A stretch of DNA of 64,000 bases from Pseudomonadota bacterium (GTDB taxonomy: Bacteria > Pseudomonadota > Alphaproteobacteria > Rhodospirillales > Magnetospirillaceae): NCBI GenBank assembly GCA_021848545.1, contig JAJZUL010000001.1, positions 1 to 64,000 on the forward strand. The letters run 5' to 3'. How positions within the stretch are numbered: the stretch's first letter is position 1; each line of letters starts with the position of its first letter. The notes under the pieces were generated by a model. That model was not told the origin of the DNA, did no database searches, and saw only the letters and a list, made by a program, of their open reading frames with translations. Of the stretch, positions 1,075 to 43,757 are shown piece by piece. Position numbers and translations under genes: made by a program.

Positions 1075-1908
1075 GTGTCCGTCCTGACCGCCCCGTTTGA
1101 CGCCCATTCCCCTGCCGACGAGGCGATGCCATGGGGTGCGCTGCTGATACCGGCGCGGGCGCGGCGTCAGGTGATGGCCTTTTACCGTTTCGCCATAGCG
1201 GCCGATAATCTGGCCGACGCCCCGAACCTGTCGCCGGAAGAGAAACTGCTGGGCCTGGATGGCATGGAGCGCGGGCTGGCAGGCGGGATCGGGCACCAGG
1301 CGGCGACCCGTTTGCGCCAGGCGCTGGGTGGCGACGAAATCCTGCTCGACCATGCGCGCCAATTGCTGCAGGCCTTTCGTCGCGACGCCGTTTGCGATCA
1401 TTGCCGCGATTGGGCGGATATGATGACCTATTGCCGGTTTTCGGCGGTGCCGGTGGGGCGCTTTCTATTGGACATCCTGGATGAAGCGCCCCAGGCGGCA
1501 TCGGCCCTTGATTCCTTATGCGCGGCTTTGCAGATCCTCAACCATGTGCAGGATTGCGGAATCGATTACCGCAAGCTGGGACGGGTCTACCTGCCCCGTA
1601 ACCGCCTGTTGCAAGCCGATATCGCCATCGACGTCCTGGCGGGCGCGGAATCACCGGCTGAATTGCGTCGCGTGCTCGACGGCGTGCTTGACGGCGTCGA
1701 TGGTCTGATCCATCTCGCCCGCCCTCTGCCGGAAATTTTGCGGGAACGGCGCCACCGGGCCGAAGCCGCCGCGGTCATCGAATGGGCTCAGCGCCTGACC
1801 CACCGTTTGCGGGTCGCGGACCCCCTGTTCCGTCCCGTCCGTGCCGGTTTCAGCGATTACGTCGCCGCCGTCGGCGCGGCTTTGTGCGGTTGTTTCCGCC
1901 AAGAATGA
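1075..1908 (+). CDS. hpnC: HpnC, presqualene diphosphate to hydroxysqualene synthase
   Basis: This 277-residue squalene/phytoene synthase-family enzyme is expected to convert presqualene diphosphate to hydroxysqualene in the bacterial three-step route to squalene for hopanoids. It shows the family core: FYRFAIAADNLAD near the N-terminus (first Asp-rich motif), MMTYCRFSAVPVGR in the middle and NHVQDCGIDY as the second Asp-rich motif. The start is a GTG at 1075 with GGAG six bases upstream; longer in-frame readings enter the divergent gene. Its stop overlaps the hpnE start (ATGA), so the two are translationally coupled. HpnD, which makes presqualene diphosphate, is not in the window. Confidence 0.9.
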   Translation: MSVLTAPFDAHSPADEAMPWGALLIPARARRQVMAFYRFAIAADNLADAPNLSPEEKLLGLDGMERGLAGGIGHQAATRLRQALGGDEILLDHARQLLQAFRRDAVCDHCRDWADMMTYCRFSAVPVGRFLLDILDEAPQAASALDSLCAALQILNHVQDCGIDYRKLGRVYLPRNRLLQADIAIDVLAGAESPAELRRVLDGVLDGVDGLIHLARPLPEILRERRHRAEAAAVIEWAQRLTHRLRVADPLFRPVRAGFSDYVAAVGAALCGCFRQE

Positions 1909-10130: not shown

Positions 10131-10769
10131 TCACCCCTCGGGTATTCCTTCGACCAGGGGCACGAAGCGCACGTCCAGGATGGGGTGGATATCCATTCCG
10201 TCCTCGGTTCGTGTAACCCGCAACAGATCCTGGAAGGATTCGTCGCCCACCGGCAGCACCATGATGCCGCCCGGCTTCAGTTGCTCCACCAAAGCGGGGG
10301 GCACGTCATGGGCCGCGGCCGTAACCATGATGCGGTCGAACGGCGCCTGTTCCGGCCAGCCCCGCGAACCGTCGCCATGTTTGAAGGTGATGTTGTGGAT
10401 ACGCAGGGCCTTGAAGCGCTGTTCCGCCTCTTTGAGCAGAGGACGATGACGCTCGACCGTATAAAGCCGTCGGCACAATTGCGCCAGAATAGCCGATTGG
10501 TAGCCCGATCCCGTGCCGATTTCGAGCACCTTCATGCGGTCGCCGACCCGAAGCTCCTGGGTCATCAGGCCAACCACCAGCGGCTGGCTGATGGTTTGAC
10601 CGCACCCGATCGGCAGTGCGGAATTTTCCCACGCCTGATCCGAAAAAGCCGACGATACGAACATTTCCCGCGGAACCCGTTCGATCGCGCCCAGCACGCG
10701 GGGATCGGTCACGCCCGCCCGCCTCAATTCCATCAAAAGCCGGATGACCCGCGCCTCGGCCGCACTCAT
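10131..10769 (-). CDS. pcm: Protein-L-isoaspartate O-methyltransferase (Pcm)
   Basis: This 212-residue SAM-dependent methyltransferase repairs isoaspartyl residues in damaged proteins. The N-terminal RVPREMF and the post-I region GCGQTISQP bind the peptide. [18 protein letters not shown] is the SAM-binding motif I, and [12 protein letters not shown] is motif III. Length is normal. It follows surE by 15 bp in an operon with a downstream NlpD-like gene, the same trio that occurs in many proteobacteria. Confidence 0.95.
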
Positions 10770-10784
10770 CTGTCCCGTCCGTTT

Positions 10785-11669
10785 TCAGGCGAAAACGTTT
10801 CTCAATGCGCGCAACGCCCGTTCGTCGGTCATATCGATGCACAAGGGTGTCACCGAAATGGCACCGCGATAGACCGCTTCGAGATCGGTTCCGGGGGCGA
10901 ATTCCTCCGCCGTCCGTTGAGCGCCGATCCAAAGATAGGGGTCGCCGCGCGGGTCCAGGCGCTCGGCCAGTTGATCGCCGACCTTGCGCTTGCCCTGGCG
11001 GGCCAGTTCGACGCCCGTCACATGAGTATGGACGACATCGGGAAAATTCACATTGATCAAAACCGATCGGTCCCATCCCACGGACGCGACCCGGCGAATG
11101 ATATCGGGCGCCCAATGTTCGGCGGTCGCCCATTTGACCGGGTGATCCGGATTGAATAACTGGCTAAGGGCGATGGCCGGAACACCAAGAATGACCGATT
11201 CCATCGCCGCCGCCACCGTTCCGGAATAGGTGATGTCGTCACCGAGATTGGCGCCGCGATTGATGCCCGACAAGATCAGATCCGGCCTGCGGTTCCTGAA
11301 AATGTGATTGATGCCCAAAAGAACGCAATCGGTGGGCGTCCCATCGACGGCGAAACGCCGCCGCGACACCTGCCTGATCCGAAGCGGCCGGCGCAAAGTC
11401 AGGGAATGGCCGGTCGCCGATTGTTCGGTTTCCGGAGCCACCACCCATACGTCCTTGGACAGGCTGCGGGCCACCTTTTCCAGCATCTTGATGCCGGGGG
11501 CGTTGATGCCGTCGTCGTTGGTGACGAGAATCCGCGCCGCCGCCAGATCGGCGATAGGGGCAAAGGCCGCATCGGTGCGGGCATGGCCATCGGATAAAGA
11601 CTTTACGGAATTCGGAGCCTGACGCGCGAGGTTGCCCTGCCCGTGTCCCACGCCCTCACCTTCCGTCAT
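10785..11669 (-). CDS. surE: 5'/3'-nucleotidase SurE
   Basis: This 294-residue metal-dependent nucleoside monophosphate phosphatase shows the signature ILVTNDDGINAPGI at about 46-59, the metal-binding SGINRGANLGDDITYSGT and INVNFP near the C-terminus. The only ATG is at 11669, giving about 45 residues before the conserved start. Most SurE proteins begin almost directly at RILVTNDDG. No ATG, GTG or TTG was found closer, so the extension may be real or the start may be unusual. It lies between tatC and pcm. Confidence 0.93.
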   Translation of the reverse strand: MTEGEGVGHGQGNLARQAPNSVKSLSDGHARTDAAFAPIADLAAARILVTNDDGINAPGIKMLEKVARSLSKDVWVVAPETEQSATGHSLTLRRPLRIRQVSRRRFAVDGTPTDCVLLGINHIFRNRRPDLILSGINRGANLGDDITYSGTVAAAMESVILGVPAIALSQLFNPDHPVKWATAEHWAPDIIRRVASVGWDRSVLINVNFPDVVHTHVTGVELARQGKRKVGDQLAERLDPRGDPYLWIGAQRTAEEFAPGTDLEAVYRGAISVTPLCIDMTDERALRALRNVFA

Positions 11670-35705: not shown

Positions 35706-36014
35706 CTAATTCTTCCGCACGATGACGCGCCAATAGCGATCGACTTTCAGCGTTCCCAGATGGGTCGCGTTCAGTTCCGACATCATCGGCGGTATGGCTT
35801 CCATCGAGGTGGGATTGTCCACCTTCACTTCGATGACGTCGCCCGGCGCCGCCTTGCCCAGGGCCTTTTTGGTCATGAGCTGGGGCCGCGGACAGGAATC
35901 GCCCAGGACGTCCACGACTTGACTGAGCGTATAGGTCTGCCCGTCGATGGCGACGGTCTCGACGGCCGCGGCCTCAGCCGCATCGTCGGCTTTCTTTCTG
36001 CTGAAAAGTCCCAT
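35706..36014 (-). CDS. TusA/SirA-family sulfur carrier
   Basis: This 102-residue protein has about 28 extra N-terminal residues before the TusA domain. VVDVLGDSCPRPQLMTKKAL contains the conserved CPxP motif whose Cys carries persulfide. It is cytoplasmic. AAGGAG lies nine bases before the ATG. TusA proteins commonly accompany YeeE/YedE permeases and DsrE proteins in sulfur uptake or oxidation clusters, and all three types are present here. Confidence 0.92.
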   Translation of the reverse strand: MGLFSRKKADDAAEAAAVETVAIDGQTYTLSQVVDVLGDSCPRPQLMTKKALGKAAPGDVIEVKVDNPTSMEAIPPMMSELNATHLGTLKVDRYWRVIVRKN

Positions 36015-36033
36015 GATCGATTCTCCTTGTTGG

Positions 36034-36645
36034 TCAGCAACCGCCGCTTGGCTTATCCGAACCGCCCCGCGCCTTTTCCTTCTTCAGGATGGCGCGATAC
36101 AGGAACAACAGGCCGGCGAATTGAACGATGCCGAACACGATTGCCGGAACGCCGGTCTTCTGTTGCAGCGTCAGGGCGTCGGCGAAACCCAGTTGCAGGC
36201 CGGCCAGATTGGGCTGGCCGGTCATGGTCGATCCGGCCGGCGGCCAGTAGGTGTAGGACCACAGCAACGACGATACGAACAGGCCGATGATCAGGAACAG
36301 CAGCGCCCACAGGGCGCCGATATTGCCCTCGCCGGTCTTGACCCACGACGACACGGTGCAGGCTCCCGCCAGCACCATGCCGATGCCGAACAGGAACAGA
36401 CCGACGAACTGGTTAAGGCCGACGTCGAAGCGCATGGGATTGCCGTTGCCGACGCTGATGAAGGCGGTGAAGCCCAGCGTCAGGATCATCATCGCCACCA
36501 GCAGCGCCTTGGCGTTGCGAAAGGTCTTGAACAGCATGGCGTCGCGCAACGCCGCCGTGTTGCACCAACGCGACCGCTGCACCAGCAGGCCCACCACCGA
36601 ACCGAACATGAAGGCCGCAACGCATTGCCCCGTCACCGTAATCAT
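36034..36645 (-). CDS. YeeE/YedE-family half-permease (second of pair, PmpB-like)
   Basis: This 203-residue polytopic protein has five TM segments. VLAGACTVSSWVKTGEGN is the conserved Cys-containing helix break of YeeE/YedE, and QRSRWCNTAALRD gives a second conserved Cys. Bacterial YeeE (TsuA) imports thiosulfate through cysteine relays. Here the transporter is split in two genes, as in PmpA/PmpB systems. It starts four bases after the first half's stop. Confidence 0.88.
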   Translation of the reverse strand: MITVTGQCVAAFMFGSVVGLLVQRSRWCNTAALRDAMLFKTFRNAKALLVAMMILTLGFTAFISVGNGNPMRFDVGLNQFVGLFLFGIGMVLAGACTVSSWVKTGEGNIGALWALLFLIIGLFVSSLLWSYTYWPPAGSTMTGQPNLAGLQLGFADALTLQQKTGVPAIVFGIVQFAGLLFLYRAILKKEKARGGSDKPSGGC

Positions 36646-36648
36646 CGG

Positions 36649-37170
36649 TCACGCCTCCATCACTTTTTTGTAGATCAGGGTTCCGACCCAGGCGCCGGCG
36701 ATGATCCCGCTGACCGCCAGATAACCGCCCAGATTCATCTCGGGGGTCAGGCCGAAGAAGGTGCTGACGTTGCACACGAAAGACAGGCGGATACCGATGC
36801 CCATCAGCAGGCCGCCGATGGTGATCATCACCCATTCGGACAGATGCCGCGGCACCCGCCAATAGAACTCGCGGCTGAGCACCGCGCCGACGAAAGCGCC
36901 GAACCCCATGCCAAGGCTGATATAGATCTTCCAATAGGCCCAGCTCGGCTTGAAGACCAGGCTCCAGAACGGAATGCGGGCCAAGGTGCGCGCCCCCAGG
37001 ACGTACTTTCCCACCAGACCGGCGATCATGGTTTCACCGCCGCCGACGGTCCACGCGCCGACGATCAGGAACAGGAAAACGTCGAGCATGGCGATGATTG
37101 AAAGAGCGATTACCGGGTCGAGGGTTCTCTGAAACAGATCGAGTTCCCGGATCTTCCGCAACAGATCCAT
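36649..37170 (-). CDS. YeeE/YedE-family half-permease (first of pair, PmpA-like)
   Basis: This 173-residue protein has about four to five TM segments. RLSFVCNVSTFFGLTPEMN is the counterpart of the conserved Cys loop and GGLLMGIGIRL is family-typical. AAGGAG lies eight bases before the ATG at 37170. It is the first gene after the sigma-54 promoter and so the operon leader. The substrate is probably a small sulfur species such as thiosulfate, by family analogy. Confidence 0.88.
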   Translation of the reverse strand: MDLLRKIRELDLFQRTLDPVIALSIIAMLDVFLFLIVGAWTVGGGETMIAGLVGKYVLGARTLARIPFWSLVFKPSWAYWKIYISLGMGFGAFVGAVLSREFYWRVPRHLSEWVMITIGGLLMGIGIRLSFVCNVSTFFGLTPEMNLGGYLAVSGIIAGAWVGTLIYKKVMEA

Positions 37171-37218
37171 ACGGCATCTCCTTGTATGCTGACCGACGAC
37201 GGCGCCTGCTTTCGACAT

Positions 37219-37234
37219 AGCAACGTCGATGCCA
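37219..37234 (-). promoter_or_regulatory. Sigma-54 promoter of the sulfur operon
   Basis: Minus strand TGGCATCGACGTTGCT matches the -24/-12 consensus TGGCAC-N5-TTGCW with exact GG to GC spacing. It lies about 50 bp before the first half-permease start and just downstream of a gene for a sigma-54 activator with GAFTGA. Confidence 0.85.
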
Positions 37235-37293
37235 TAAGGAGATATTTGCGCCGAAGCGCCGCAAACTGCGAAATCCGAGCTGTTTCGTCCCTT

Positions 37294-37329
37294 GTTGCGC
37301 CGCAACCGAACTGTTCTATTTTGGAACAG
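37294..37329. promoter_or_regulatory. Candidate activator-binding sites upstream of the sigma-54 promoter
   Basis: Two palindromes lie 60-95 bp upstream of the promoter: GTTGCGCCGCAAC (37294-37306) and CTGTTC-N7-GAACAG (37311-37329). This distance suits an enhancer for the NtrC-type regulator encoded next door. Which one is bound cannot be told from sequence alone. Confidence 0.5.
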
Positions 37330-37346
37330 CTCTGTATCGATATGGG

Positions 37347-38672
37347 TCAGTCCAACTCGTCAAGTTTGCGCCGCAACGTTGAGCGACTGATCCCCAGAAT
37401 TCGGGCGGCGACCACCTGATTGCCCCCGTTGGCGGCGAGCACCCGGCGGATGTGTCGCGCCTCCACCGCCGTCAGGCTGAGCGCCGTTTCATCCTCGCGG
37501 GCGGCGGGAAAAGCCCCCAGAGCGATGGAATCGGCATCCAGCACCGATCCGCCGCACAAGGCGAAGCTGCGTTCGAGCACGTTTTCGAGCTGGCGCACAT
37601 TGCCCGGCCAATCGTACAGAACCAGCTTTTGACGAGCCGCCAAGGTCACCGACAGATCACCGCATCCCGAGCGCGCCCGCATCCGTCCCAGGAAATGATC
37701 GATCAGAAACGGTATGTCGTCGCGTCGCTCCCGCAACGGCGGGATATGAATCGGCAACACGTTGAGGCGGAACCAGAGGTCGCTGCGAAAGGTCTTTTCG
37801 GCGACCATCGCCTCCAGATCGCGATTGGTGGCGGCGATCACCCGCACATCCACCTTTATCTCGGCCTGACCGCCGACCGGCCGCACCGTGCTGTCCTGAA
37901 GCACCCGCAGAAGCTTGGCCTGGAGACGGGGGCTGATATCGCCGATCTCGTCCAGAAACAGGGTGCCGCCATGGGCCTGTTGGAACAGGCCGCGCATATT
38001 GGCGGTGGCCCCGGTAAAGGCCCCTTTGACATGGCCGAACAGTTCGGAATCGAGAAGCTCTTCGGGCAGGGCGCAGCAATTGATGGCGACGAAGGGGCCG
38101 CGCGCCCGCCCGCTGACGCCATGAACCGCCCGGGCGATCACCTCCTTGCCGGTGCCGGTTTCACCGCCCACCAGAACGGGAATATCCTGGTTGCGGATGC
38201 GCTCGACCACCCCCAGAATCCGGCGCATGGCCGGGCTGGCGGCGACGATGTCGGTCAGGGCGGACCGGCCGGACAATTCCTGGCGCAGGCGGGTGACCTC
38301 GTCGCGCAAGGATTTCTTTTCCAGAACCTTGTTGACCCGAAGCAGCAATTCATCGGGATTGATGGGCTTGGTCAGGTAATCGTAGGCGCCCAGACGCATG
38401 GCCTCGACGGCGGTCTCGATCGAGGCGAAGGCGGTCATCACGATGCTTTCGGCCGGATGGCCGATGGCCCGCAAATGGGACAACAGGTCGATCCCGTTGC
38501 CCTCTCCCAGGCGCAGATCGGTCACCATCAGATCGACGGGATTGCGCTCCAGGGCCGTCTTGGCGGCCTCCCCCCCCTCGGCCTCGATGACGGCATGCCC
38601 CTCCGAGGACAACAGCATGGCCAGGGTACGGCGGATGGAAAATTCGTCATCGACGACAAGAATCGTGGCCAT
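37347..38672 (-). CDS. Sigma-54-dependent NtrC-family response regulator
   Basis: This 441-residue protein has a receiver domain with phospho-acceptor Asp52 (VTDLRL) and a switch Lys in YLTKPIN. The AAA+ domain has Walker A GETGTGKE and the sigma-54 contact loop GAFTGA. A Fis-type helix-turn-helix ([20 protein letters not shown]) ends the protein. It is cotranscribed with the kinase, six bases away, and points toward the sigma-54 promoter at 37219, its likely target. Confidence 0.95.
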
Positions 38673-38678
38673 GACCGC

Positions 38679-40091
38679 TTACGCCGCCTCCAGGGTAAAG
38701 CTGACTTCGGTGCCGGCGCCGACATGGCTCATGACCTCAAGCCGGGTGCCGTGTTGCATCAGAATGCGCTGAACGATGGACAGACCCAACCCCGTGCCTT
38801 GCTTGCGGCCGGTCACGAACGGCCGGACGATCCGTTCCAGCAGATGATCGGGTATGCCGCATCCGGTATCGGCGATACTGACGCGCACCAGCGCTCCCTC
38901 GCGCACCAGCCGGCAATAGACATCCCCGCCATCGGGCATCGCCTGCACCGAATTCAGGATCAGATTCCAGATCACCTGGCGCATCTGGTCGGGATCGTGG
39001 AGCGTCCGGCAGGGTCGGTCCGCCGATTGGACATGCACCCGCACCGCCCGCGCCTGGGTGTCCTCGCCGATCAGATGGGCGACCTCGTCGATCAGGGCGC
39101 AAATATCGTCCGCGACCGGCCGCGTTTCCCGGATACGGGAAAAATCGAGAAAATCGTTCAGGATTCGTTGCAGACGTTGGGTTTCGGTATTGAGAATACC
39201 GATGGCCTGGGTGCGATCCGCCGCCGTCAGGGACGGATGGCCCAGCAGCTTCACGGAATTGATCACGGCCGACAGGGGATTGCGGATTTCATGGGCGATG
39301 CTGGCCGACAATTCTCCGACGCAGGCCAACCGTTCGGCGTCGGTGCGCTTTTCATGTTCCCGACGGGCCTGATCCGATGTCGCCTCCAGGGATTCGGCCA
39401 TGGCGTTGAAGGCCCCGCCCAGCAACCCCACCTCGTCGCGCGCCCGAATGTTCACCCGCGCCGCCAGATGGCCGCCGCCGATGTCGCGCGCCGCCCCCAT
39501 CAAGGTGTGGAGATTGCGGGTGATCACGTAGGACAGCGCTCCCGCGACCAGACTGCCGGCGACGATGGCCAGCAGGATGAAGGCCACGCCCTGGTCCCGG
39601 GTCTCGGCGATATGGGCGTCCAGGGCGCGGGTGGACATGCCCAACAGCACCGTTCCCACCGGCTGGCCGGCCGCCCGCACCGTGTCGCGCAGATCGAGAA
39701 CATGACTGCGCCGGGATCGGCGCGCCAAATCGATATGATGGCCGACCTGGGCGGGATCGGTACTGGCCAGCACGTCGCCGCGTATATCGACGATGGCGCC
39801 GTAAACCACGTCGGGCTGGCGTTTCACCCGCCCGGTGATCTCGGCCAGGGACCCCAGATTCTCGGACAACAGGGCATTGGTGCTGGCCACCGCCATCAGG
39901 CTGGTCAAGGCATGCGCCCGATTGATCAAATCGGTGCGAATGTTCTCCGATTGCTTGGTGACGGCCAGCCAGACGAAGGCCCCCATCAGGATGGCGTGAA
40001 CCAGCGCCACCGAGACGATCAGCCGGAACCGCAAGGTTTGAAAAAACGAGACTTTCGGTTCCGCCGGCAGGGGATAGACCATATCCGTCAT
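38679..40091 (-). CDS. Membrane histidine kinase, partner of the PhnD-like sensor
   Basis: This 470-residue kinase has two TM segments (about 23-43 and 168-188) around a periplasmic region, then HAMP, the H-box SIAHEIRNPLSAVINS and the ATP-binding G-boxes ADTGCGIPDH and GTGLGLSIV. The ATG at 40091 with GAGGTG five bases upstream is preferred to the ATG at 40118, which would overlap the preceding gene. It lies between the binding protein and the regulator as a three-gene unit. Confidence 0.92.
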   Translation of the reverse strand: MTDMVYPLPAEPKVSFFQTLRFRLIVSVALVHAILMGAFVWLAVTKQSENIRTDLINRAHALTSLMAVASTNALLSENLGSLAEITGRVKRQPDVVYGAIVDIRGDVLASTDPAQVGHHIDLARRSRRSHVLDLRDTVRAAGQPVGTVLLGMSTRALDAHIAETRDQGVAFILLAIVAGSLVAGALSYVITRNLHTLMGAARDIGGGHLAARVNIRARDEVGLLGGAFNAMAESLEATSDQARREHEKRTDAERLACVGELSASIAHEIRNPLSAVINSVKLLGHPSLTAADRTQAIGILNTETQRLQRILNDFLDFSRIRETRPVADDICALIDEVAHLIGEDTQARAVRVHVQSADRPCRTLHDPDQMRQVIWNLILNSVQAMPDGGDVYCRLVREGALVRVSIADTGCGIPDHLLERIVRPFVTGRKQGTGLGLSIVQRILMQHGTRLEVMSHVGAGTEVSFTLEAA

Positions 40092-40098
40092 CGGCACC

Positions 40099-40923
40099 TC
40101 ACGGCTTGACCCCGTCATATTCCCGGTTGGTGGCGGCGACGAACCCCTGCTTGAACCCGAGATGGTCCAACACCCGCCGTCCCTGGGCGCTGTCGGTCAG
40201 GTGGGTGAGCAGATGGCGCAAGCGGGCCGCCACCCGGGGCGGCATGTCGCTGCGAACCGCAATGGGCATTTGCGGCTGCGGCGGCGTTTCGGCGACCACC
40301 CGAAGATCGCGCCGCACCTTGGCCGGCATCGAACGCAAAGAGGGAAACCAGGTACCGGCCATATCCACCAGCCCGTAATAGACCGCCATCAGGGCCGAAT
40401 CCTGCGACCCGAAATAGCGGACCTTGAAATCGCGCTTCACCGACAGGCCCAGCGAGCGCATGTACTGACGGACCATGACCGTGGCGGCATAGGCGTTGGG
40501 ATCGGGGAAGCCGATCTTCAGCCCCTTGGGCAGGCCCTTGCCGCCCAGATGGCGGATACGGCTGTCCTTCCGCACCACGACGATGCCGGTGAACGGCTCG
40601 CCCGCGACCTTGACGATGACACGGTATCCGGCCTTGCGGGCCCGGGTGTAAAGCAACGGATTGAGATAGATGATGTCGTATTCGCCGCGCCGCACCCGGC
40701 GCATGAAACTGGCGAAACTGGGCGCGGTCACGAACTCGACGGGATGATCGAGCCCCCGCGCCAACGCGTCGGTCAGGGGCAGAAACATTTTGGCCAGCAT
40801 GGTCGGGCTTTGCAGGGGCAGAACCCCGAACCGGTAGTATCGCGCCTCCGCCGCCCGCGCGCCGCCCCATCCCGCCCAGAGCAGGATAACCGCCACCGCC
40901 AGTCGCCACGCCGCGCGCCGCAT
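40099..40923 (-). CDS. PhnD-like periplasmic substrate-binding protein, probable ligand sensor
   Basis: This 274-residue exported protein (signal LAVAVILLWAGWGGARA) has the PhnD/PBP2 fold: RFGVLPLQSPTMLAKMFLPL, EYDIIYLNPLLYTRARKAGY, GFPDPNAYAAT and GLVDMAGTW. There is no ABC permease nearby; it is followed by a kinase and regulator. In the tetrathionate system the sensor kinase TtrS has a PhnD-type domain, so a sulfur oxyanion ligand is plausible (inference). GAGGAGG precedes the ATG. Confidence 0.88.
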   Translation of the reverse strand: MRRAAWRLAVAVILLWAGWGGARAAEARYYRFGVLPLQSPTMLAKMFLPLTDALARGLDHPVEFVTAPSFASFMRRVRRGEYDIIYLNPLLYTRARKAGYRVIVKVAGEPFTGIVVVRKDSRIRHLGGKGLPKGLKIGFPDPNAYAATVMVRQYMRSLGLSVKRDFKVRYFGSQDSALMAVYYGLVDMAGTWFPSLRSMPAKVRRDLRVVAETPPQPQMPIAVRSDMPPRVAARLRHLLTHLTDSAQGRRVLDHLGFKQGFVAATNREYDGVKP

Positions 40924-41855: not shown

Positions 41856-42015
41856 ACGTTCAGTATCCCGGAACACGGTGTAATTCCGTGGCGGTCCCGC
41901 CGCTGTAATCGGGGACGTCGGCTGCACGGCGACAAGCCGGCCACTGAGGGGGCACACCCCCTCGGGAAGGCGCAATCCGATGGACGATCCGAGAGCCAGA
42001 AGACCTGCTGAACAC
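41856..42015 (+). ncRNA. Cobalamin (B12) riboswitch
   Basis: The conserved core is present in order: GGAACACGGTGTAATTCCG, GGTCCCGCCGCTGTAATCGG, GCCACTGAG, GGGAAGG and the B12 box AGCCAGAAGACCTGCTG. Closing helix P1 is GTTCAG (41858-41863) with CTGAAC (42008-42013). It should lower expression of the downstream peptide and radical SAM genes when adenosylcobalamin is plentiful. Confidence 0.95.
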
Positions 42016-42049
42016 ACGCGACGAAGGGCGGAATCCGATGGAAAGGGTT

Positions 42050-42085
42050 CCGGCGGGCGATATGCCCTGCCGGCGTCCTTTGTTT
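42050..42085 (+). terminator. Expression-platform terminator of the B12 riboswitch
   Basis: CCGGC plus GGGC pairs with GCCC plus GCCGG across one bulged T and a five-base loop (42050-42073). CCTTTGTTTG follows. It lies between the riboswitch and the peptide start, as expected for transcriptional control. Confidence 0.6.
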
Positions 42086-42109
42086 GTGTCGACACATCGG
42101 AGCAATGTC

Positions 42110-42244
42110 ATGAAACAGACCGCCCTCGACAAGCCCCAGCCGGCCCAACCGCGGCCGGAGATCATCGCCGTCCGCAAGACCTGTGATGCCGAAGGCACCG
42201 GCCTTTCCCATTACATCCTCATGGATAAGCGGGTGAAACGGTGA
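42110..42244 (+). CDS. cbpA: CbpA-like RiPP precursor peptide (44 residues)
   Basis: This short gene has GGAG seven bases before its ATG and its stop overlaps the radical SAM start (GTGA). The N-terminal half is Pro/Gln-rich (KPQPAQPRPE) and leader-like. The C-terminal half RKTCDAEGTGLSHYILMDK looks like a compact core with one Cys, Ser, His and Tyr. A short peptide between a cobalamin riboswitch and a radical SAM/SPASM gene is the defining layout of the predicted family 'modified peptide precursor CbpA'. That assignment is from memory, not a search. The modification and function are unknown. Confidence 0.8.
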   Translation: MKQTALDKPQPAQPRPEIIAVRKTCDAEGTGLSHYILMDKRVKR

Positions 42245-43629
42245 GCCTGATACCGGCCGCCAAGGAAGAGGGCTCCGCCGCTGGTCCTCTTCCGCCGTTC
42301 CACACCATCGACATCGGCCACGCCACCCATGTCGCTCTGGTCGAACCCGATACGGCCTTTTGGGGCCTGGTCCGCAAAGACCGGCTGGCCGACCCGACCG
42401 CCGTGGCCCAACTGGGAGACATTTATCGAGTCCAGGCGGATGGCTTCGCCCGCGAAATGGACATGCTGCGCTTTCACCTGCGGCCGTCCGCCGTCTATTT
42501 CAATCCGACCGAGCGCTGCAACCTCAACTGTTCGTACTGTTATATTCCAGAGGATATGCGGCGAAACGGCGAGCATATGACCGCGGCCGCCATGCTGGAC
42601 GCCCTTGAACGCCTGCACACCTACTTTCGCGGCCACATGCCGGAAGGACGCCTGCCCCAGGTCATCTTTCACGGCGCCGAACCCCTCATCAATCGTCGGG
42701 TCGTCTTCGCCGGCATCGAAGCCTTCGCCGACCGCTTCCGCTTCGGGGTGCAAACCAACGCCACCCTGCTCGATGACGAAGCGGTGCGTTTCCTCACGGG
42801 GCACGGCGTCGGCATCGGCCTTTCCCTTGACGGCCCGGAGGCGGAAATCGCCGATCGAACGCGCCGCCGCTGGAACGGCACCGGCGTTTACGACCATGTG
42901 GTGCGAGCCATGGAGCGACTGGACGGATATGCCGGCTACAACGTCATCTGCACGATGACCACCGAGAACCTGCCCCATCTGACCGAACTGGTGGCGTTCC
43001 TCCATGCCCACCGGGTCCCCGCCTGCATGCTCAACGTCACCCGCTGCACACTGCCGGGCGCCCGTCGGATCAATGGCGGCGACGAGGCGATGGCCGGGGC
43101 CTACATCGCCGCCCTTGAACGGACGCACGAGCTGTACCGCGAAACGGGGCGCAAGCTGGTGGTGGCCAATTTCGCCAATATTCTCATCGCCATCATGGCC
43201 CCGACGGCGCGGCGCCTGATGTGCGACATTTCGCCCTGCGGCGGCGGACGGAGCTTCTTCGCCCTGGCGCCGAACGGCGACCTGTTCCCGTGCAGCGAAT
43301 TCATCGGCCTGCCCGCCTTCAACGGCGGCAATCTTTTCCGCAACCCGATCGATGATGTTCTGGCCAGCCCACCGTTCAAATTGGTCAGCGGCCGCAAGGT
43401 CGAGGATATCGCCGGTTGCGCCACCTGCGGCATTCGTCACTTCTGCGGCTCGCCCTGCCCCGCCGAAGCGCACGAAATGAACGGCGGCATGAACCGCAAG
43501 GGAGCCTTCTGCGCGTTCTACGAAGAACAGGTACGCTACGCTCTACGTTTGATCGCCGATGGCCGCCACGAAGATTTCCTGTGGGACGGCTGGGACGAAG
43601 ACGCCGAAACGCTCTACTCGATCGGCTGA
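42241..43629 (+). CDS. cbpB: CbpB-like radical SAM/SPASM peptide-modifying enzyme
   Basis: This 462-residue protein has about 90 residues before the radical SAM cluster motif C93-N-L-N-C97-S-Y-C100, suggesting a peptide-recognition region. A TIM-barrel part follows (FHGAEPLINR, GIGLSLDGPE). A C-terminal SPASM region (about 325-425) carries many cysteines: CDISPCGGG, LFPCSEF, CATCGIRHFCGSPCP and FCAFYEE. These should bind auxiliary Fe-S clusters. The GTG start overlaps the peptide stop. It probably crosslinks or otherwise modifies the CbpA core. It has no B12-binding domain, so B12 control is through the riboswitch, not cofactor use. Confidence 0.9.
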   Translation: MSLIPAAKEEGSAAGPLPPFHTIDIGHATHVALVEPDTAFWGLVRKDRLADPTAVAQLGDIYRVQADGFAREMDMLRFHLRPSAVYFNPTERCNLNCSYCYIPEDMRRNGEHMTAAAMLDALERLHTYFRGHMPEGRLPQVIFHGAEPLINRRVVFAGIEAFADRFRFGVQTNATLLDDEAVRFLTGHGVGIGLSLDGPEAEIADRTRRRWNGTGVYDHVVRAMERLDGYAGYNVICTMTTENLPHLTELVAFLHAHRVPACMLNVTRCTLPGARRINGGDEAMAGAYIAALERTHELYRETGRKLVVANFANILIAIMAPTARRLMCDISPCGGGRSFFALAPNGDLFPCSEFIGLPAFNGGNLFRNPIDDVLASPPFKLVSGRKVEDIAGCATCGIRHFCGSPCPAEAHEMNGGMNRKGAFCAFYEEQVRYALRLIADGRHEDFLWDGWDEDAETLYSIG

Positions 43630-43656: not shown

Positions 43657-43705
43657 TTGGAGTGTGATGCCCTAAATATGCATCACACTCCAAGCCGTTT
43701 TGTTT
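43657..43705 (+). terminator. Strong hairpin with T-rich tail after cbpB
   Basis: TTGGAGTGTGATGC (43657-43670) pairs perfectly over 14 bp with GCATCACACTCCAA (43680-43693). GCCGTTTTGTTTTT follows. It likely terminates the riboswitch-cbpA-cbpB transcript. Confidence 0.75.
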
Positions 43706-43757
43706 TTCCCTCTGCCGCTCGCTCAATGCTCGCCGGAGCGACGCGTCCAAGATTTAG

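Follow-up and report, generated by a model that had tools for sequence, protein, structure and literature searches.

What does a cell do with a peptide of 44 residues, the gene of which stands behind a cobalamin riboswitch and runs directly into the gene of a radical SAM/SPASM enzyme? The question is raised by one locus in the stretch of 64,000 nucleotides analysed here (the window), for which a first-pass annotation had proposed a modified peptide serving under cobalamin or cobalt scarcity, perhaps as a metallophore or a signal. The locus consists of the following features.

41870–42004, forward strand: cobalamin riboswitch aptamer, core part (RF00174; cmscan 77.2 bits, gathering threshold 31.5, E 2.8e-17)
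42042–42081, forward strand: hairpin, presumed expression platform (centroid fold -24 kcal/mol; terminator-like pattern at 42050–42073)
42099–42102, forward strand: ribosome-binding site GGAG, read directly, 7 bases 5' of the ATG of cbpA
42110–42244, forward strand: cbpA, precursor peptide of 44 amino acids (TIGR04164, 55.7 bits, cut-off 35)
42173–42229, forward strand: conserved core RKTCDAEGTGLSHYILMDK of CbpA, residues 22–40 (core of the same kind beside CbpB in 132/137 distinct loci)
42241–43629, forward strand: cbpB, radical SAM/SPASM peptide maturase, 462 codons (TIGR04163, 703.6 bits, cut-off 375)
43657–43707, forward strand: terminator, 14-pair stem at 43657–43693 and T-rich tail to 43707

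The cobalamin riboswitch, which had been called full, scored above the gathering threshold; the word "full" was slightly too strong, since the match aligns with model positions 47–167 of 189 only. The identity of this switch is given by homology, and its direction, i.e., off in the presence of B12, would correspond to the usual behaviour of the riboswitch class. A terminator-like hairpin had also been described; the hairpin is stable, but the 68-nt stretch containing it showed a z value of only -1.33 and is not stable beyond shuffled sequences, and the T run on its 3' side is weak. The 44-codon gene indeed has a good ribosome site, and cbpB starts with GTG, which overlaps the stop codon of cbpA as GTGA at 42241–42244 (read directly), as had been noticed before. 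The terminator is real (z -4.92; 0 of 200 shuffles were equally stable), but it is located just beyond position 43629, where the cassette had been thought to end, and it was absent from the output of a pattern scan for terminators. A simple scan for a sigma-70-like promoter yielded none.

The layout had been likened to the predicted families CbpA/CbpB, and the NCBIfam search agreed, with scores over both cut-offs. Judged by its sequence, the locus is thus a member of a family already named by NCBI (TIGR04164/TIGR04163), with the two genes adjacent and behind a cobalamin riboswitch; nothing essential differs. "Undescribed" is therefore right in one sense only, since the family has names, while no description of, or experiment on, CbpA/CbpB was found in the literature covered, which included few subscription papers and had bioRxiv outside its scope.

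Comparison of the precursors confirmed the conserved core. Neither of the two outcomes which the first-pass annotation had named as refuting it, a riboswitch score under the threshold and a lack of conservation of the peptide frame in relatives with the enzyme, was observed. The peptide frame with a core R-x-x-C…GLSHY adjoins CbpB in 132 of the 137 distinct loci, which excludes chance for the observation in the window; the five misses are situated at contig ends, with <230 bases upstream, and in one of them (L113) the end of a core is visible. The conserved part of CbpA can be written as [VI]I[AS]xR[KRY]xC…G…GL[STA]H[YF][IVL][LM]. Since the search pattern already demands R and GL[STA]H to some extent, their invariance is partly a product of it; the real test of the core is that it matched wherever a distinct locus had 230 or more bases upstream. 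All but one of the 132 precursors contain the core Cys. The exception, an elusimicrobial CbpA (L120, 9855–9968), carries Ser at the position of the core Cys and Thr at that of the core Ser and counts against the explanation preferred below; it scores 26.8 bits against the TIGR04164 cut-off of 35, and the adjoining CbpB has all eleven invariant Cys. A supposed second precursor with Ser for Cys (L042) was an artefact of the pattern and was discarded, so that L120 alone remains. Two positions after the core Cys, 104 of 131 cores have Ala or Pro, and the CbpA of the window contains one Cys. The leader is short and variable, and inspection of CbpA by eye showed no signal sequence. The stretch from Cys to GL is up to two residues longer in some loci around L099, and the distance between cbpA and cbpB ranges from overlap to well over 100 bases across loci.

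Nine divergent precursors were compared with TIGR04164; six were below the cut-off and one exactly at it, so that some family members escape the model as it stands. The CbpA variants in L189, L190, L194, L207 and L209, for example RYTCAPHGDQVGLSHY and RRRCRKLGDSTGLSHY, are all below the cut-off and will thus be missed by annotation based on this model. Two gammaproteobacteria (L093, stop at 1354; L111, 2234–2464) have precursors with two complete tandem cores each, and this suggests the core as the unit.

Rfam scans were carried out for 86 of the 137 distinct loci, and RF00174 was found directly 5' of the pair in 73 of them (17/20, 11/11, 6/8, 4/7, 15/20 and 20/20 in the successive batches); this rate is not flattered, since the first four batches were mostly loci in which a crude pattern had found nothing. 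The 13 loci without a switch directly upstream count against the preferred explanation. Two of them, L112 and L114, have RF00174 far upstream, heading the operon; the remaining 11 are L083, L103, L104, L107, L119, L121, L130, L138, L139, L157 and L158. Four of these (L121, L130, L157, L158) are embedded in cbi operons, and two (L138, L139) are truncated by the end of a contig (in the tabulation of B12-gene context, L130, L157 and L158 bear the numbers L140, L186 and L187). The genome of the window contains two RF00174 matches in all, and the position of the second, in front of a nickel/cobalt permease, counts in favour of the preferred explanation:

L126 (contig G000:C16), 9748–9966: second cobalamin riboswitch (RF00174) of the window genome, followed by a NicO permease at about 10200–11137

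Three further genomes (G002, G036, G053) also have two RF00174 matches each, one just 5' of CbiM, and a switch precedes cbpAB as well. At least 20 of 22 CbpB carriers with CbiM, among the relatives and the matches listed, have a switch within ~100 bases 5' of CbiM; such switches occur also in relatives without CbpB, which counts against the preferred explanation. Some further RNA elements were observed. Near the cobalamin riboswitch of cbpAB, the opposite strand carries another one in L056 (836–1020, reverse strand), L063 (5604–5786, reverse) and L105 (9289–9495, reverse). G025, a carrier relative listed as 100% complete, has 17 RF00174 matches and no CbiD match. In L154, an Acido-Lenti-1 RNA match (RF01687, 46.2 bits; 1237–1281, reverse strand) is situated upstream of cbpB, on the opposite strand.

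The pair is found across many bacterial groups. CbpB was over the cut-off in 25 of 99 relatives, the own genome included, and CbpA in the identical 25, once per genome. Within the phylum of the window, CbpB was found in 11 of 299 genomes (own included), around L112 in 12 of 337 and around L099 in 36 of 395 (both including previously known carriers), and over the cut-off in 0 of 14 control genomes. Loci with the core bear 14 phylum labels among the named ones, where the labels follow record titles, and one copy resides on a Methylovirgula plasmid, annotated as cbpA/cbpB. From the scan of named genomes the best 80 of 176 relatives were kept, and 79 of these, together with the window, formed the rows of the tree. 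The window fell, with support of 98/87, into a group of 17 rows made up of 15 Pseudomonadota, one row with the label Acidobacteriota, and the window itself. Elsewhere in the tree the phylum labels are mixed, with 24 label changes where 13 would be the least possible; this suits horizontal spread, although with binned genomes it is no proof.

Genes for B12 or cobalt were found within 1 kb of the pair in 17 of 126 loci, which include some near relatives of each other; one of the loci (L124, genome G062) had been added after CbiD was seen on its contig, and with this locus removed 16 of 125 remain. Such loci were also the source of the B12-gene queries, which did not include CbiO, and matches <60 bits were discarded. 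No B12 gene was present within 1 kb in the other 109, some of which have shorter flanks, and this counts against the preferred explanation. The nearest B12 or cobalt gene was in the first kb in 20 of 236 flanks, and in each further kb in 0–2 flanks (of 70 to 194); this sharp fall beyond the first kb points to a link with the pair itself, not with the region. The gene order in L112 and L121 is cbiC-cbpA-cbpB-cbiM-cbiN-cbiQ; cbiX stands between cbpB and cbiM in L186 and L187, and L114 has cbiM upstream and cbiX downstream of the pair. Directly after cbpB, cobT was found in 4 of the 126 loci (L081, L085, L092, L141), and cbiB, cbiA or other B12 genes adjoin the pair in L082, L093, L111, L140, L099, L105 and L063. 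The pair in G062 has bolA, dnaJ and two cobaltochelatase genes, cobS and cobT, as neighbours. CbiM, CbiQ, CbiX, CbiC, CbiD, CbiB, CbiA and the CobT phosphoribosyltransferase were confirmed by Pfam in representatives, whereas the labels CobU, CobA, CbiN, CbiL, CbiF, CbiH and CbiJ derive from the reading of one operon and similarity to it. Together with the second switch of the genome, in front of NicO, this operon context under several phylum labels supports the link to cobalamin or cobalt scarcity which the first-pass annotation had drawn.

A wider scan covered 130 of 489 neighbour proteins, mostly from loci outside the Alphaproteobacteria and excluding those encoded in the main B12-operon loci. 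It gave no shared partner gene; among the 25 of 192 families listed, none occurred in more than 4 of the 130 proteins. Transport families among the matches listed were HlyD_D23 (4), HlyD_3 (4), ACR_tran (2) and ABC_tran (2). By similarity clustering, genes for RND pumps and/or HlyD-type adaptors occur near cbpAB in L078, L089, L102, L117, L063 and L087. In the window, frames resembling a periplasmic binding protein, a sensor histidine kinase and an NtrC-type regulator (37347–40923, reverse strand) and frames resembling a TusA-type protein with YeeE/YedE-like membrane proteins (35706–37305, reverse strand) were recognized by eye.

The capacity of the carriers for B12 synthesis varies. Among the 50 carriers reached via loci, CbiC was present in 31 and CbiF over the cut-off in 29, and both were missing in 17, with partial CbiF matches counted as present; in the full set of 80 carriers tested, 55 had CbiF over the cut-off and 67 had CobS. 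Nine of the 17 kept CobS (G401, G402, G404, G408, G409, G417, G418, G422, G426), and by this gene content some carriers look like corrinoid salvagers. Many carriers are binned genomes for which completeness is not given, and genes of the CbiC/CbiF type cluster, so that single absences may be gaps. G426 is doubtful as a salvager, since its own locus (L105) contains CbiA- and CbiP-like genes. In two apparent salvagers, the hosts of L081 and L085 (no CbiC/CbiF, CobS kept), cobT follows right after cbpB. A universal role as a pure cobalt-chelatase chaperone was dropped on account of the 17 carriers without CbiC and CbiF, as cobalt insertion could then not be the need in every carrier, unless the bins are incomplete. 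Co-occurrence was also discarded as evidence: CbiD was present in 23 of 25 carriers and 57 of 74 non-carriers among the 99 relatives, which is too weak, and the figures for CbiM (22/25 and 40/74 of the same 99) are confounded by kinship; the window genome itself is without CbiM.

As to the enzyme, Pfam gave Radical_SAM and SPASM over their cut-offs and Fer4_12 below its own. No B12-binding domain was found in CbpB by Pfam, in line with the first reading. Both the CX3CX2C motif and the SPASM Cys set of radical SAM/SPASM maturases are present, and eleven Cys are invariant in 51 of 51 aligned CbpB sequences, namely the CX3CX2C trio (93, 97, 100) and eight auxiliary ones (328, 333, 351, 393, 396, 402, 406, 424). 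The closest solved structures by sequence were CteB (121.8 bits) and then anSME (107 bits). The AlphaFold model of CbpB had a mean pLDDT of 89.3, with residues 1–16 and 329–333 under 50; its fold matched CteB with Z 34.8 and rmsd 3.2 over 377 aligned residues, and anSME with Z 33.5 and rmsd 2.5 over 343. Residues 21–78, considered as a possible RRE leader-binding domain, form three short strands and one long helix in the model of the whole protein. CteB (PDB 5wgg/5why), a thioether maturase for ranthipeptides (SCIFF), is thus the best match in PDB by sequence and fold; SCIFF precursors, which we take to be Cys-rich with six Cys, differ from CbpA with its one Cys.

With anSME (PDB 4k36–4k39), CbpB shares the fold and the pattern of auxiliary Cys, and it could be imagined that the core Cys is turned into formylglycine, as by anaerobic sulfatase maturases, with no thioether being formed; such a reaction would be compatible with any role of the peptide. 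The prevailing Cys-x-Ala/Pro of the CbpA cores resembles the sulfatase motif, which we assume to be CxPxR/CxAxR, L120 has Ser in place of Cys, and the eight invariant auxiliary Cys of CbpB are presumably spaced as in anSME, the fold of which is near. Against this stand a score of 107.1 bits for TIGR03942 (anaerobic sulfatase maturase; cut-off 349.45), by which CbpB is not a member, the slightly better values for CteB, and the residue Ser352, invariant in 51 of 51 CbpB, at the position aligned with the Asp after the third auxiliary Cys of anSME, an Asp which we take to be catalytic. Formylglycine formation appears unlikely, and we would lean towards a Cys-based crosslink.

The explanation which we prefer, at a probability of roughly 45% for the whole, is that of an intracellular modified peptide of cobamide or cobalt supply, switched by B12. 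When cobamides become scarce, the riboswitch would permit expression of cbpA and cbpB, which would form a minimal two-gene RiPP system within the B12 regulon. CbpB, with Cys for three clusters, would modify the conserved core of CbpA; the pairing is seen in the genomes, the reaction we infer. The modified site would most likely be the near-invariant Cys, and the product would probably be crosslinked and keep the invariant His. It should remain inside the cell, as the absence of a signal sequence by eye and of a common adjoining exporter gene suggests. There, judging from the genomic context, the peptide may help to secure the supply of cobamides; its most likely task would be to hold cobalt or corrinoid intermediates or to hand them on. 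The occurrence in carriers both with and without corrin-ring genes is better accommodated by a role in cobamide supply overall than by cobalt insertion alone. That the peptide itself is a working part of B12 supply, either as a cobalt- or corrinoid-handling peptide or as a peptide cofactor, we hold to be quite conceivable, at somewhat less than even odds.

Other roles have to be weighed against this. A redox cofactor made from the peptide, comparable to PQQ or mycofactocin and acting for example in the reduction or activation of corrinoid cobalt or for a B12-sparing enzyme, would account for the strong conservation of the core, the two-gene cassette with no common third partner (among the families listed), the presence in B12 makers as well as apparent salvagers, and the double-core precursors of L093 and L111. 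Among the families listed, however, neither a dedicated peptidase nor a dedicated dehydrogenase recurs often next to the pair, and the conserved stretch of about 19 residues seems longer than a cofactor derived from one or two residues would need; we regard such a cofactor as rather improbable. The metallophore or signal which the first-pass annotation had considered, i.e., a modified peptide which leaves the cell, binds cobalt and is then reimported, would go well with the B12 switch ahead of the pair, the adjoining cobalt importer genes in L112, L121, L114, L186 and L187, and the Cys and His of the core. HlyD-type adaptors, the most frequent neighbour transport family among the matches listed (4/130), and RND pumps of the ACR_tran type (2/130) could serve export, and the RND/HlyD genes of L078, L089 and L117 were checked by Pfam. 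Yet transport genes are present in few loci, and three of these (L078, L089, L102) lie close together in the tree. Among the 25 of 192 neighbour families listed, no further transporter, receptor or peptidase was prominent, and carriers without corrin-ring genes fit badly with a cobalt scavenger. A secreted metallophore or signal is not supported by these data and seems quite improbable.

A still smaller likelihood is assigned to a contribution to late cobamide assembly, in which the peptide would furnish a component or ligand, such as a precursor of the lower ligand for use by CobT. The loci with cobT right after cbpB gave rise to this thought (Pfam for L081, L085 and L141), two of them in the hosts without CbiC/CbiF which kept CobS; but these are only four of 126, and elsewhere the neighbours are cobalt import, cbiB, cbiA and cbiX. 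It is very improbable, finally, that the peptide is a mere translated leader for the riboswitch or for translational control and never becomes modified. A small gene right after the switch, with a stop-start overlap into cbpB, would look like this in the window, but the amino acids are conserved under many phylum labels, and cbpB may overlap the peptide gene or begin well over 100 bases after it. Moreover, codon changes in 106 cores, relative to the window, were 553 synonymous and 255 not, versus 70 and 756 in the +1 frame, a count biased by the search pattern, which fixes some residues.

Among known systems, CobW, CbiX/CbiK and others supply cobalt for B12 synthesis (PMC7689651). These are protein chaperones and chelatases and not modified peptides, and cbiX adjoins some of the cbpAB pairs. 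A study from 2004 on B12 elements in delta-proteobacteria reported cbiMNQO and cbiX in the B12 locus of Geobacter (PMC545781). CbpA/CbpB are not named in the portions of PMC545781, PMC9062424 and PMC7689651 examined.

If the preferred explanation is true, the role of the CbpA/CbpB peptide would span many phyla and include B12 makers as well as apparent salvagers. We know of no earlier RiPP with a role in cobamide metabolism, and CbpA/CbpB would then be the first. The pathway accounts of cobamide metabolism, in the parts consulted, contain no such peptide. A core conserved under many phylum labels, together with a B12 switch and with B12 operons in several lineages, would point to a part of this metabolism which those accounts lack. 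The system consists of two small genes only, and its product and role should be directly testable in a laboratory host.
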